53,694 nucleotides of DNA, taken from assembly GCF_000979455.1 (NCBI RefSeq), contig NZ_JJOY01000013.1:1-53694 (forward strand), read 5' to 3'. Position 1 is the stretch's first letter. Each line of letters opens with the position of its first letter. Below, in pieces: positions 22,668 through 43,000 of the stretch. This DNA is from Methanosarcina sp. 2.H.T.1A.6. Its GTDB lineage: Archaea > Halobacteriota > Methanosarcinia > Methanosarcinales > Methanosarcinaceae. Position numbers and translations under genes: made by a program. The notes below the pieces were generated by a model. That model was not told the DNA's origin. It saw only the letters and a program-made list of their open reading frames with translations, and searched no databases.

Positions 22668-22739
22668 AGGTCTGTGGTGTAGAGGATATCACTGGAGCCT
22701 CCGGAGCTCCGAACCTGGGTTCGATTCCCAGCAGACCTG
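22668..22739 (+). tRNA. tRNA-Arg, anticodon CCG
   Basis: Acceptor AGGTCTG (22668-22674) pairs perfectly with CAGACCT (22732-22738), discriminator G at 22739. The anticodon arm GGAGC-CTCCGGA-GCTCC gives anticodon CCG, reading CGG. The T arm is CTGGG-TTCGATT-CCCAG. CCA is not encoded. No intron seen. Confidence 0.95.
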
Positions 22740-23000
22740 TAATGAATTTTTCCTGCTGAGTTTTTATAAATTTATAACTTTATGTTTGACTTTTATTGCA
22801 AAACATCAGGTTTTAAATTCCTGTCTTACCTTTTGTTTTCTCCACTTAAAAAATTCTATTTTCCCTTAATAATTTCAATTTCATTCAGGTTTAATATTAT
22901 GGAAATTTTTCAGGAAATGCTCTCAGTCACGGGCAGAAAATATAAAAAGAGAAATAAAGTAAACGTATAAACAAAAAGAGAAATCTGGAAGGTTTACAAC
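22740..23000. other. Spacer without a supported gene
   Basis: AT-rich. A 62-codon frame from 22782 has no ribosome binding site and looks like chance. Confidence 0.4.
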
Positions 23001-23183
23001 ATGGCTCACGGATTTAATCGTCGCTTTCTGCGTGTAGGAAGAAGGAAACTTTCTCTGGTTCAGTTAATTCTGGTAGCGATAATACTGTATTTCCTGCTTC
23101 GCATTCTTCTGCCATTTGTTTGGACTCTGTTTTTGATCGTTGCTTTAGTTGTACTGCTGAAAGTAGTTCTTGCAAATCTTTAA
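23001..23183 (+). CDS. Small hydrophobic membrane protein
   Basis: 60 aa with an Arg-rich N-terminus (GFNRRFLRVGRRKL) and one long or two short hydrophobic helices (residues 19-58), so it should sit in the membrane with the N-terminus inside. GGAAGG lies about 9 nt upstream of ATG 23001. I do not recognise a family. No close partner gene. Confidence 0.6.
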   Translation: MAHGFNRRFLRVGRRKLSLVQLILVAIILYFLLRILLPFVWTLFLIVALVVLLKVVLANL

Positions 23184-37598: not shown

Positions 37599-37608
37599 CT
37601 GTTATCAT

Positions 37609-37690
37609 CAAATTCTCTTCAAATTCTCTTCAAATTCTCTTTAAATTCTCTTTAAATTCTCTTTAAATTCTCTTTAAATTCTCTTTAATA
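37609..37690. repeat. 11-bp tandem repeat, about seven copies
   Basis: AAATTCTCTT(C/T) units between two convergent glycosyltransferase genes. Confidence 0.9.
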
Positions 37691-37725: not shown

Positions 37726-38688
37726 TTATTTTAAGATTGTTCTTTTATATAATGTGAGAAATTTCTGACATAGCACCTTGTTATTATGAACTTTCTCTAC
37801 GTATTTTCTTCCGCTTCTTCCAAGATTTTCCCTTAAATTTTCATCACGTATTAATTCTTCCAATCTTTGCTTTAGATTGTCTTTTGTAACATTTACTATT
37901 CCACTGGGCTCTTCCAGATAAGGCTCTAATCCAGGCTTAATCCATGTACAGCATGGAATTCCCATCTGTTGGGCTTCATTGGTGAGAACACCGTACCATC
38001 CGACCTGTCTTTTATCATAAAAACCAACAGAATCAACAACTATATCACTGGTCTGAAGCAATTGCATTACTTCCTTATGGGGTTTATTTTCAATCAATAA
38101 GCAGTCAACATTTGGATATTCCTTTTTGAGCTGGTCCATCGCTTCCAGAAAATATTCTGTACCTTTGTAGAATCTGTTTGTTGGAGCATGCCCGATTATG
38201 ATTTTATCATCATTTCGATTGACTTTACTTAACCCGTGCCAGGGGATACAGTTTGGAATCCATATAGCATCCGGTGAATAGTCAAGTAAATCCGGGGTCG
38301 AAACTATTTCAACATCTGCGAATTTTGATCCAAAAGTTCTGCCATTATTTCTTAATTTACTGCCGTGCCAGTGGACAACAACTTTGCCGAAACGTTTAAA
38401 AAAAAGCGGTATGTCTATATCCTGGGGAAATATTCCTGCATCGTGAAGATGAAATATATCAAATTTCTCTTTCAATGTGATTTCTACAAGGTTTTTCTAT
38501 ATGATTTGGAAACGGCGAGGAATATCTTTTTTTGAATATTTTAACGGGAGATTTAGAGAGATATCGGTATTTTCGCTGGTATAATTTTCAGTTATCTCAA
38601 ATAAACGTACCTCATGGCCCATTTTTTTTTGTTGAAGAGACAGATTATATGCTACATTTGCAATATTCCTTATGTGCAGTATCTTCAT
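37726..38688 (-). CDS. Glycosyltransferase interrupted by one in-frame UAG (possible pyrrolysine)
   Basis: ATG 38688 opens a frame of 320 codons to TAA 37726, broken only by TAG at codon 64 (38499-38497). The text on both sides is continuous glycosyltransferase: KKDIPRRFQII, the TAG, then KNLVEITLKEKFDIFHLHDA. No frameshift or deletion is needed to join the halves. The C-terminal half has VVHWHGSKLR and GHAPTNRFYKGTEYF. ATG overlaps the wecB stop (ATGA), so it is set up for coupled translation. In Methanosarcina UAG can be decoded as pyrrolysine; read-through would give a full-length protein, termination would give 63 aa. A plain nonsense mutation is the alternative. Confidence 0.8.
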
Positions 38689-39752
38689 GTTTTCCCAGAG
38701 TTCATTTTTTGAGAGATTTTACCACTTGCGTTCCCGTCCCCAAATACTTCATTTCTTCTCTTGGTGCCCTCAAAATTTTCAATAGCATGTTTGATTTTCT
38801 CGTAATCTGCTCCTGTAAGTATATTCCAGCCTTCTTCAACTGTTTCTACCCATTCCGTATTATCCCTTAAGGTTATGCAGGGCACTCCCAGCATATAGGC
38901 TTCTTTCTGTACCCCTCCGGAATCGGTGAGTATTTTTCTGGCATTTGATTCGAGTTTTAACATGTCAAGATAGCCAACAGGGGGGATTACTTTTGTGTTC
39001 TTAAGGATTTTTTCCCACAAATTGTATTCTTTCAGGTATTTTCTGGTCCTTGGATGCATTGGAAACACTATTGTCGTTTCTACATCAGAAAAGGCTTCAA
39101 CAATTGATGAGAGGTTTTTTATATTGTCCGTATTGGAGGCACGGTGTACGGTTGCTAAAAGGAACTCTTTTGGATTGAGATTAAGATCCTGTAAAATCGT
39201 TGATTTTTCTTCTGCAATTTTCTGGTTATACTTAAGGGCGTCTACCATTACATCCCCAACATTGTATACACCTTCAGTGATGCCTTCATTTTTCAGGTTC
39301 ATCACTGCAGTATCAGTCGGGCAGAATAGTATATTCGAGATGTGATCGGTTATGACTCTGTTAATCTCTTCAGGCATGGCCCGATCAAAAGACCTCAGTC
39401 CAGCTTCCACATGTGCCACTCTGATGTGCAGCTTGGTAGCAGCAAGTGCGCCTGCAAGTGTAGAATTTGTATCTCCATAGACAAGCACGATGTCTGGTTT
39501 CTCTTTCAAAAGTACTTTTTCTATTTCTAGAATCATCTTGCCGGTTTGTTCCCCCTGGGTACCCGAGCCTATACCAAGGTTGTAGTCCGGCTTTGGGATA
39601 TCGAGTTCTTCAAAAAAGACCTCGGACATTTCAGGGTCATAATGCTGGCCTGTGTGGACAAGTATTTCTTCATGGTGCTTTCGGATGGTACGGGACACAG
39701 GAGCACATTTTATAAATTGAGGGCGGGCACCGACTACTGATACAATCTTCAT
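38685..39752 (-). CDS. wecB: UDP-N-acetylglucosamine 2-epimerase (non-hydrolysing)
   Basis: 355 aa. Hallmarks are GARPQFIK (residues 8-15), HTGQHYDPEMS, VYGDTNSTLAGALAA, HVEAGLRSFDRAMPEE and TDSGGVQKEA. It interconverts UDP-GlcNAc and UDP-ManNAc. The product may be oxidised by the dehydrogenase at 45517 to UDP-ManNAcA. The C-terminal 25 residues after GADYEKIKHAI look less conserved. Overlaps the next gene at ATGA. Confidence 0.95.
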   Translation of the reverse strand: MKIVSVVGARPQFIKCAPVSRTIRKHHEEILVHTGQHYDPEMSEVFFEELDIPKPDYNLGIGSGTQGEQTGKMILEIEKVLLKEKPDIVLVYGDTNSTLAGALAATKLHIRVAHVEAGLRSFDRAMPEEINRVITDHISNILFCPTDTAVMNLKNEGITEGVYNVGDVMVDALKYNQKIAEEKSTILQDLNLNPKEFLLATVHRASNTDNIKNLSSIVEAFSDVETTIVFPMHPRTRKYLKEYNLWEKILKNTKVIPPVGYLDMLKLESNARKILTDSGGVQKEAYMLGVPCITLRDNTEWVETVEEGWNILTGADYEKIKHAIENFEGTKRRNEVFGDGNASGKISQKMNSGKT

Positions 39753-39862: not shown

Positions 39863-40840
39863 TCACTGGATTTTTTCATAAACTTCTTTTATTTTCCTGG
39901 TGTTTGACTCCCAGAAACGATAATCTTCAGAGTTCAATTTCTCTGGTTTTTTATCAAGATACTCTCGGACAGCATTTTCGAGTTCAGAACTTTTTACAAT
40001 CAGCAGGTTTTTTCTGTCCTCTTCCTTCGTGATTCCCGAGGCTATTACCAGTTTTCCAAGGTTCAGGTATTCATTTAGTTTCCAGATGCTTTTATCCGTC
40101 GAATAAGGGGTCAAATTATTTTCTTTTCTGGGTATCATACATATTCTGGCTTTTTTGACTATCCCTGCCACTTTCTCATGAGGCTGCCATCCCATAAATT
40201 CTACATTGGTGGGTTTTTTTGCCAAATGCCACTTTGAAAAGGGGCCGTCTCCCACGATCCTGAATTTTTCATCCGGATACTTTTTTGCCAGATTCAGGAA
40301 ATTTCCTATCCCTTCCTGCTCGCAAACCCTCCCCAGAAATGTTATGGCTCCGTCTTCTGCCAGATCCTCTCCTGTCAAAAAACTATTTTTGGGGTAATTG
40401 GGGACCTCATAGACCTCTTGTTTTCCGTCTTCTGTATATGTTTTTACTTTTTCTCCCAGAGGCCCGTTTACCGTGGTTATAAGGTCCGCACTTGCTGCCA
40501 TTTTTTTTTCAAAATATTCAGCCATCATCCTGCTGGGAGCCCCTAAATTCATTTCAAGTTCAATACCCCAGGGAGACCTGTAGTCATAGATCATCTTTTT
40601 GTAGTAAGTTCCTTTTAATTTAGACAAATCGTGATATATTATATCCGGGACATTAAAAATGTGAATTACATCTGGTTTTTCTCTTTTTATGAATTGTTTG
40701 GCAAGGCCTGAGATCTGTATCCAGTTTCTGGTATTAAATTTGGGGATGAACGTGTCATATCCCAGTTCTTCAAGGGTACTCTGGAACATCTTGAGCCTTG
40801 TGGTATGTTCTGGCTGGTTAGCAAGCAATAAAATTCTCAT
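39863..40840 (-). CDS. Glycosyltransferase, GT4-like
   Basis: 325 aa. GT-B donor-side motif ITFLGRVCEQEGIGNFLNLA with RIVGDGP, and the later MGWQPHEKVAGIVKKARICMIP. The N-terminus (MRILLLANQPEHTTRL) is the start of the acceptor domain. It begins within the last codons of the gene upstream (4-nt overlap), so the two act in one operon. Confidence 0.87.
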   Translation of the reverse strand: MRILLLANQPEHTTRLKMFQSTLEELGYDTFIPKFNTRNWIQISGLAKQFIKREKPDVIHIFNVPDIIYHDLSKLKGTYYKKMIYDYRSPWGIELEMNLGAPSRMMAEYFEKKMAASADLITTVNGPLGEKVKTYTEDGKQEVYEVPNYPKNSFLTGEDLAEDGAITFLGRVCEQEGIGNFLNLAKKYPDEKFRIVGDGPFSKWHLAKKPTNVEFMGWQPHEKVAGIVKKARICMIPRKENNLTPYSTDKSIWKLNEYLNLGKLVIASGITKEEDRKNLLIVKSSELENAVREYLDKKPEKLNSEDYRFWESNTRKIKEVYEKIQ

Positions 40841-41958
40841 ATGGATCTCCTCAAGACCTCTTCGTATTTTCTGGCAAGGACTTCCCAGTCAAAAGTCTTT
40901 GCAATTTCTCTATATTTTTCCTCATTGTTTGGAGTATTCAGAATCCTTTTTACCTCACGGATGAATCCGTCTTTATCATCATAGTAATATAAGTTATCTC
41001 CGAGCATTCTTACAAGGGAAATTGTCCTGCTGGATAACACGGGTCTTCCGCAAGCCAGATAATTGAACACCTTTCCTCCAGCTGCATATTCGTTTTTATC
41101 CATTTTTTTCAGTGTATTGAGCCCTATATCCATAGCTGAAATATAAGGCCCTAAATCCTCGTAAGGCACAGCTCCTGTAAATGTGATTTTTTCCGAAACT
41201 CCCAGCTTGTTTGCCAGCTCTTTGATCTTATCACCGTAATCTGTAAACAGTCCCGGGCCCACAACCAGAAGGCTTACTTCCAGATCAGGGAGTGATTCTA
41301 CAACCATTTCAAGATCTACCCAGTGCTCAAGTGACCCTACATATCCTATGACAGCACCTTTTAAGCCCAATTTCTTTTTTGCCTCCTCTTTTGGGAGAGG
41401 TCTTAAAAGATTACAATTTACTCCATTAGGAATTACTTCTATATTTTTGACCCTTATACCTTCCAGAAAATCTTTGAGTTCCCGGGTTACGGTTATAACA
41501 GAAGTTGCATGTCTTAAATTATACCTTGTAATTTGCCTTACCCCATTCTTAACAATTTTTCCAAAAAAAGAGTCTGGGTAATATATTGAAGCAGATTCTT
41601 CTAAGTGGTCCAGATAGTCAAAAACAACAGGCACATTTAAAAAATTAATTATAAATGATGGAAGGATGTTTGCAGAGAGAACAACATCTATGCCTTCTTT
41701 TTTTATTACTTTTTTCATTTCCAAAAAATGCTCTGGCCAGTTTAATAAATAATATAAAGAAGGATCTTTCACACCTATAAATTTTGTATCTAAAAGTTTG
41801 CAAGCTGTTTTTCTTGCTCTGTTATTTCTGAAATTCTCCAGGTTGAAATGTAGTACATACACTTCATGTTTTTCTGCAAGGATATCAAATATGAAGTTAA
41901 GTCTATTCGGAAAAGGGTGCCTGATCCAATCAGTAGTAGGTATCACAAGAATTTTCAT
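40837..41958 (-). CDS. Glycosyltransferase, GT4-like
   Basis: 373 aa from ATG 41958, chosen because AAGGA lies just upstream; the frame extends five codons to a TTG. Motifs GAVIGYVGSLEHWVDLEMVV and LLVVGPG in the donor half, then GKVFNYLACGRPVLSS. Overlaps the following glycosyltransferase by 4 nt. Confidence 0.87.
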   Translation of the reverse strand: MKILVIPTTDWIRHPFPNRLNFIFDILAEKHEVYVLHFNLENFRNNRARKTACKLLDTKFIGVKDPSLYYLLNWPEHFLEMKKVIKKEGIDVVLSANILPSFIINFLNVPVVFDYLDHLEESASIYYPDSFFGKIVKNGVRQITRYNLRHATSVITVTRELKDFLEGIRVKNIEVIPNGVNCNLLRPLPKEEAKKKLGLKGAVIGYVGSLEHWVDLEMVVESLPDLEVSLLVVGPGLFTDYGDKIKELANKLGVSEKITFTGAVPYEDLGPYISAMDIGLNTLKKMDKNEYAAGGKVFNYLACGRPVLSSRTISLVRMLGDNLYYYDDKDGFIREVKRILNTPNNEEKYREIAKTFDWEVLARKYEEVLRRSI

Positions 41959-43000
41959 GGGATTTCCTTTCAATTTTCTACATTTTTCAATATAAGAATC
42001 AAATTTGGAACAGTACCTATATTATTCTTTCTTATTTATATTAGTCTTTTATAATATTTGCACAGAGATCTCATGCTGCAGCGAACTGCCTGATGTTAAA
42101 GCATTAAAGACTTCCGGCTCCATTCCCCTGATTACATTTTACCAGTCCGGTTCAACCTAACTAACATCCCGCTGACGCATTAATGGTTCCTTACTGCCCG
42201 GTTGCCGCATTAAGAAATGAACGGTAATTGTTCAAGTATTATATAAACATATTAAATGAATATAAATAAGCTTGAAATGTTATGGGGAGACATTCCATTT
42301 TATCCTATGCTAAAGTTTTTAGGCTTTAGATGAACTTTCTTCACATCCCGATTAGAAGAAGAAGCTACTTCATTCCTTGAAGCAATCCACCCCCGGAAGA
42401 ATCTGCTGTCCGCTATGTCATTTCCTGTGTAAAAATGACACCGGCAAGTTCTATGCGATGACCCTCCGGTCCATGAGACCTGGGTATCCTCCGCACAGGG
42501 AGTTGTTTATGCATAAATGTGTAATGTGCTTTTCGGAAGTAATGTTCTCTAGGTGGATATGGTTATGTCAAGATTTTTAAATAAGTAAAGGGTGTAAAAT
42601 AACCGGAACCGCCTCACCGAATGAAATGGTCAAAATAAGCATGACTCTTCGAGATCTTAGTAAAAAAAATATTGATTTTACGAATCTTCAACTTGTCACC
42701 AACTTGTCATCAACTTGTCTTCAACTTGATAAGTATATTCCAGATAAAATGCCCCAACTGAATTAATTTTTTGACATGATTTGAATTATCGTATCCAAGA
42801 ACCCTCATTTTTCACGATCTTAAAAACTCAGGTAAAACAACTCAGTTAACACTCGTCCGGGAGTTCAGGCAAAACTTATTTAATAACTTCTCACATATAT
42901 TGACCTGCTACAAAAATATTTTCTGACATGTATATAATCTCTTTATTCCAGAAGTCTTTATACACTTCTATTGAATACGTTTCTAAATATATACACACAG
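41959..43000. other. Long spacer, about 1 kb, probably decayed sequence
   Basis: No gene I can support. 42061-42215 and 42380-42500 are less AT-rich than the rest and look like worn coding sequence, but I could not match them. Four imperfect CAACTTGTCA units lie at 42688-42735. Confidence 0.45.
42688..42735. repeat. Short tandem repeat of CAACTTGTC units
   Basis: Four imperfect copies 9-11 bp apart. Confidence 0.75.

Follow-up and report, generated by a model that had tools for sequence, protein, structure and literature searches.

A surface-glycan glycosyltransferase gene of Methanosarcina sp. 2.H.T.1A.6 carries one TAG within an otherwise open frame, which raises the question of whether this codon ends translation, is read as pyrrolysine, or both. 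The gene lies in a stretch of 53,694 bp that was analysed as a whole and is referred to here as the window.

The glycosyltransferase gene and its locus

The frame is on the minus strand, which the initial annotation did not give, and runs from an ATG at 38688 to a TAA stop at 37728-37726. The TAG at codon 64 was its sole in-frame stop upon translation. The initial annotation had described 320 codons uninterrupted except at this position and free of indels, and this was confirmed by translation and by orthologue alignment. Its overlap of the start with the stop of wecB was also found, the two sharing ATGA. The frame is homologous to those of relatives on both sides of the UAG. All orthologous copies stay in register through the TAG, so that the frame is real coding sequence and not a chance open frame.

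The Pfam domain Glycos_transf_1 was identified above its cut-off (32.8 bits compared to 26.4). Glyco_transf_4 spans the TAG (residues 10-111) and scored below its cut-off (24.4 bits compared to 28.5). An AlphaFold2 model computed from this protein together with its relatives (pLDDT 85.6, pTM 0.83) showed a GT-B glycosyltransferase with two Rossmann-like domains, and the best PDB matches of the model were MshA, BshA and PglA (TM ~0.7). Domain and fold thus agree on a predicted GT4-type retaining glycosyltransferase of GT-B fold. In the model codon 64 falls midway along a helix (53-73) of the N-terminal domain, and the invariant HWHGS-like and STPDLL stretches of the alignment lie apart from it. 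A downstream ORF starting at codon 72 is predicted to lack the first 71 residues and with them the strands and helices that open the N-terminal Rossmann domain. No sign of use of this ORF was seen in the sequence analysis.

The neighbourhood was classed as a putative surface-glycan locus because the amber gene is surrounded by a polysaccharide flippase, further glycosyltransferases, wecB, manC, gmd and sugar-nucleotide enzymes. The pair of wecB and the glycosyltransferase recurs in relatives, as do the two glycosyltransferases upstream. Features are listed in Table 1.

Table 1. Features of the amber-containing locus and of other frames with in-frame TAG in the same genome (G000). Plain numbers are window positions.
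Feature	Position	Strand	Basis or remark
Predicted GT4-type (GT-B fold) glycosyltransferase, 320 codons	37726..38688	-	Translation, Pfam, AlphaFold2 model, PDB fold match, orthologues
In-frame TAG, codon 64	38497..38499	-	Ser TCG in G024; Ser TCA in G015, G010 and both G011 copies
63 codons 5' of the amber, product if UAG terminates	38500..38688	-	Translation
Mechanical downstream ORF, TTG at codon 72	37726..38475	-	Next in-frame start
wecB, non-hydrolysing UDP-GlcNAc 2-epimerase	38685..39752	-	TGA overlaps glycosyltransferase ATG (ATGA); pair also adjoins in G010
Glycosyltransferase upstream of wecB, intact	39863..40840	-	Pfam, comparison with relatives
Further glycosyltransferase, intact	40837..41973	-	Pfam, comparison with relatives
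S-layer domain protein, 537 aa, TAG codon 144	G000:C50:96322-97932 (L086:16322-17932), junction C50:96751		Repeats in relatives mostly Gln CAG
PF06983 (3-dmu-9_3-mt) protein, TAG codon 82	G000:C51:118583-119128 (L057:18583-19128), junction C51:118826		
Histidine kinase, TAG codon 472 inside HATPase_c	G000:C1:54384-55904 (L070:14384-15904)		Gln in relatives
IS110-type and DDE transposases with in-frame TAG	G000:C54:116874, C54:54169; C45:71-613		

Orthologues, ancestral codon and selection

The gene was found in 10 of 31 Methanosarcina genomes (E<=1e-10), with close orthologues in four besides its own. These four contained five orthologous copies with protein identities of 73-87%. The alignment continued across the TAG with no indel at the site in G015 (81% identity), G024 (86%) and the two G011 copies (76 and 73%). 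In the G010 orthologue two segments aligned, residues 1-202 (87%) and, beyond an insertion, residues 200-318 (73%).

Codon 64 was serine in all five copies. The initial annotation had considered Tyr, Trp or UAG for this codon in orthologues, and none of these was present. The conservation of the UAG position that is seen in the methyltransferases was therefore not found among these orthologues. TAG at codon 64 was absent from every other genome searched in the 31-genome set and is private to this lineage. The nearest relative (G024) has TCG, from which TAG is a single C-to-A change, making this a one-step private amber of the Thg1 kind.

Compared with G024 (dS 0.48), dN/dS was 0.17 for the part 5' of the TAG and 0.15 for the part 3' of it. 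The dN/dS of the gene's own branch was 0.20-0.26 by parsimony, near that of the sister branches and far from 1, and its sequence departed least often from otherwise invariant columns. As both pairwise and own-branch values were low, purifying selection acted on the gene during most of the time since its divergence. This leaves two options, a TAG of recent origin or continued synthesis of full-length protein. No pseudogene signs (relaxed selection or further lesions) were seen on the own branch, although a null allele of very recent origin would give an identical picture.

In G010 the orthologue is interrupted at approximately codon 202 by an insert (L028:8666-10340) encoding an IS200/IS605-type TnpA, which matches IS200/IS605 transposases in the PDB. 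Because of this insertion the enzyme appears to be dispensable in at least one relative. The G024 orthologue is out of frame owing to a missing A in an A-run at approximately codon 20; this is a metagenome assembly and the missing base may be an error. The best match to the glycosyltransferase in plasmid records was 28%, with no close homologue among them. A view of the gene as a plain pseudogene subject to repeated decay had been built in part on a TAA in the G001 homologue and was dropped, as that TAA is the true gene end.

Pyrrolysine machinery

The genome encodes tRNA-Pyl (pylT, anticodon CUA), pylS, pylB, pylC and pylD in one intact cluster. The pyrrolysine machinery that the initial annotation had noted for Methanosarcina is thus present in this genome as pylTSBCD and looks complete. 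The cluster adjoins an mtmB interrupted by an in-frame TAG; its PYLIS match scored 96 bits and served as a positive control. No PYLIS match, PYLIS-like element or unusual fold was found 3' of the glycosyltransferase TAG (fold z -0.26). PYLIS is not required for pyrrolysine insertion, and an introduced amber without PYLIS was read through at 20-30% in Methanosarcina acetivorans (PMC2933860). UAG serves as sense and stop codon alike (PMC2933860) and is reported to be seldom used as a stop in Methanosarcinaceae (PMC3941956). Here TAG was the stop of 27 of 1,219 called genes (~2%), and these 27 include the 5' portions of some interrupted genes.

In-frame stops across the genome

In-frame stops flanked by coding sequence were sought in stretches that together cover 1.62 Mb (40% of the genome). 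Junctions were read through and scanned with Pfam, those at pylC/pylD and mtmB being judged by context. The scan gave 81 junctions, 10 with TAG and 71 with TAA or TGA. At eight of the 10 TAG junctions the stop fell inside a single domain (MtmB, MttB, MtbB, the glycosyltransferase, an S-layer protein, a PF06983 protein, and IS110 and DDE transposases). None of the approximately 70 TAA/TGA junctions tested in the 1.62 Mb interrupted a Pfam domain, though several had no Pfam match and are uninformative; C51:259993, at a stretch edge, was left out. Most of these junctions were neighbouring genes sharing a frame by chance. A family search added a ninth amber-interrupted frame, a histidine kinase with TAG in the ATPase domain (C1). 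In PF00534 and PF02518 searches of this genome the single interior stop was TAG. Where the S-layer, PF06983 and kinase genes have their private ambers, the codon in orthologues is mostly CAG or CAA (Gln). At the PF06983 site orthologues of 84-92% identity in three relatives have CAG or CAT.

Across the 31 genomes the checked families contained six strictly internal TAG and no TAA or TGA. The six were the glycosyltransferase, S-layer, PF06983 and histidine kinase genes of this genome, a G006 kinase and a G027 relative of the PF06983 protein. With an expected TAG share of 0.35-0.43 among nonsense changes, 6:0 corresponds to p ~0.002-0.006. Within this genome alone, without transposases, methyltransferases and the glycosyltransferase, the ratio was 3:0 (p 0.04-0.08), and it was 4:0 with either the glycosyltransferase or the IS110 transposase added (p ~0.01-0.03). 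The sampling was not fully independent, since the analysis set out from the glycosyltransferase and a known hit led to the choice of the DDE transposase stretch. Given small sets that depend in part on how the search was made, the asymmetry supports but does not prove a better tolerance of amber than of TAA or TGA inside otherwise intact frames of this genome. It is a more interesting lead than the single gene.

The S-layer amber frame is much shorter than its best G020 homologue (1610 aa) and may be a partial gene. The G027 relative of the PF06983 protein (53% identity) has its TAG at a different position, and the G006 homologue of the histidine kinase (L142) has its interior TAG at another codon. 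A TGA and a TAG of the G004 S-layer gene were rejected as interior stops since both lie upstream of the gene start, and TAA and TGA codons of G020 kinases were rejected as terminal stops. The alignments of the G027, G014 and second G020 kinases showed no interior stop. A genus-wide Glyco_transf_4 search showed no stops among the matches listed, which were the strongest only and are therefore uninformative.

Interpretation of the amber codon

The explanation to which somewhat better than even chances are given is a recent neutral change from serine to amber that is partly decoded as pyrrolysine, so that a reduced amount of full-length, probably active enzyme would be made. Its observed basis is the TAG, the ancestral serine, the intact pyl cluster, the purifying selection of the past and the higher number of amber than of ochre or opal codons inside conserved frames; read-through at codon 64, activity of the pyrrolysine-containing enzyme and any glycan effect are what we infer. 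The C-to-A change from TCG to TAG would have arisen recently in this lineage, in a glycosyltransferase of surface-glycan synthesis. UAG would be ambiguous in a pyl-bearing host. Most ribosomes would probably release a 63-residue product, and some would insert pyrrolysine via tRNA-Pyl (CUA) and complete the enzyme. Pyrrolysine would replace Ser64 in a permissive helix of the N-terminal Rossmann domain and would have no catalytic role. The amber would be neutral or mildly hypomorphic, tolerated because read-through buffers it. The initial annotation had proposed read-through with pyrrolysine. Partial read-through is indeed likely because the pyl machinery is complete and amber is tolerated over TAA and TGA. 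The idea of a pyrrolysine position with a role was not supported, as serine in all orthologues, the private amber and the lack of a PYLIS-like element argue against an ancestral or catalytic site. A dependence of glycan assembly on UAG decoding is conceivable, but the enzyme may be dispensable, given the broken orthologues in at least one relative.

The chief rival is a young null allele in a disposable gene, that is, a fresh nonsense mutation in a dispensable glycosyltransferase of a variable glycan locus, with any read-through too weak to have an effect. It is a serious possibility, although we lean against it. The initial annotation had named a nonsense mutation in a decaying surface locus as its alternative, and that alternative is still live. 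The IS200/IS605-type element in the G010 orthologue and the possible frameshift at the A-run of the G024 orthologue, if not a metagenome error, speak for it, and the enzyme may be dispensable because orthologues are broken in at least one relative. Occurrence in a minority of the genus and the lack of PYLIS after the TAG also fit a null allele, and the low dN/dS is equally compatible with a very recent one. However, plain decay does not predict interior TAG without interior TAA or TGA in conserved frames, which is the asymmetry found here, and the own branch has neither relaxation nor a second lesion. In favour of an error of sequencing or assembly, a single base is concerned and the genome is a draft of 54 contigs. 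The site is not a homopolymer, however, and several independent private ambers one step from sense codons, with TAA and TGA not found, are not an error pattern, making this very improbable.

Two further readings give pyrrolysine a larger part. The amber might be a functional or regulatory site coupling glycan assembly to methylamine or pyrrolysine status, since the pyl system and amber methyltransferases are present and read-through could in principle vary with pyrrolysine. This is highly unlikely: codon 64 is serine in every orthologue, is neither conserved nor catalytic and has no conserved downstream element, the amber is private to one genome, and the deletion of pylT in Methanosarcina acetivorans was reported to affect methylamine use only (PMC2933860). 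A broader reading, in which UAG is near-sense in this genome, would place neutral pyrrolysines in the glycan enzyme, S-layer protein, kinase and transposases, and their output, including the glycan, would follow pyrrolysine supply. It is conceivable but rather unlikely.

Relation to known amber-containing genes

The preferred reading, partial decoding of a neutral amber, makes the glycosyltransferase a further candidate of the Thg1 type and no new kind of system. Thg1 (tRNA-His guanylyltransferase) of Methanosarcina acetivorans contains a neutrally evolved pyrrolysine (Heinemann et al. 2009, reviewed in PMC2933860 and PMC8211752). Both are non-methyltransferase Methanosarcina genes with a single lineage-private amber and a sense codon in other species. 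Pyrrolysine is not needed for Thg1 function and was physically observed there, whereas the glycosyltransferase is known from sequence alone and, unlike Thg1, belongs to a variable gene set. MtmB, MtbB and MttB of the same genome share the in-frame UAG and the tRNA-Pyl/PylS system. Their amber is conserved between species and catalytic, while that of the glycosyltransferase is private and replaces serine; MtmB has a PYLIS match and the glycosyltransferase does not. Amber transposases of Methanosarcina acetivorans and Methanosarcina mazei likewise have an in-frame amber in a non-essential gene, but there it is reported to be conserved among copies (PMC2933860) and here it is a single private change. 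Similarity also continues across one UAG in published lists of candidate read-through ORFs in Methanosarcina (PMC1242214, PMC3639795). No glycosyltransferase is mentioned in the main text of either paper.

If the codon is read through, pyrrolysine would not be limited to methylamine enzymes and the expanded code would buffer amber mutations. Ambers could then spread into ordinary genes, a stage between stop and sense codon. If it is not, the gene would be an ordinary null allele of a glycan locus. The asymmetry between amber and ochre or opal offers a cheap test of amber buffering over complete Methanosarcina genomes.

Other observations

Thg1 genes across the genus included one interior TAG, in the fragment G016:C475:2062-2241. 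This is possibly another Thg1 amber of the Methanosarcina acetivorans type and has no bearing on the glycosyltransferase. In the window at 22770-23180, directly after a tRNA gene (22668-22739), a TAA joins two coding-like stretches in the same frame which have no Pfam match. A tandem repeat with a unit of approximately 12 bases (aattctcttta-like) is located at 37607-37690 of the window, between the convergent ends of two glycosyltransferase genes.
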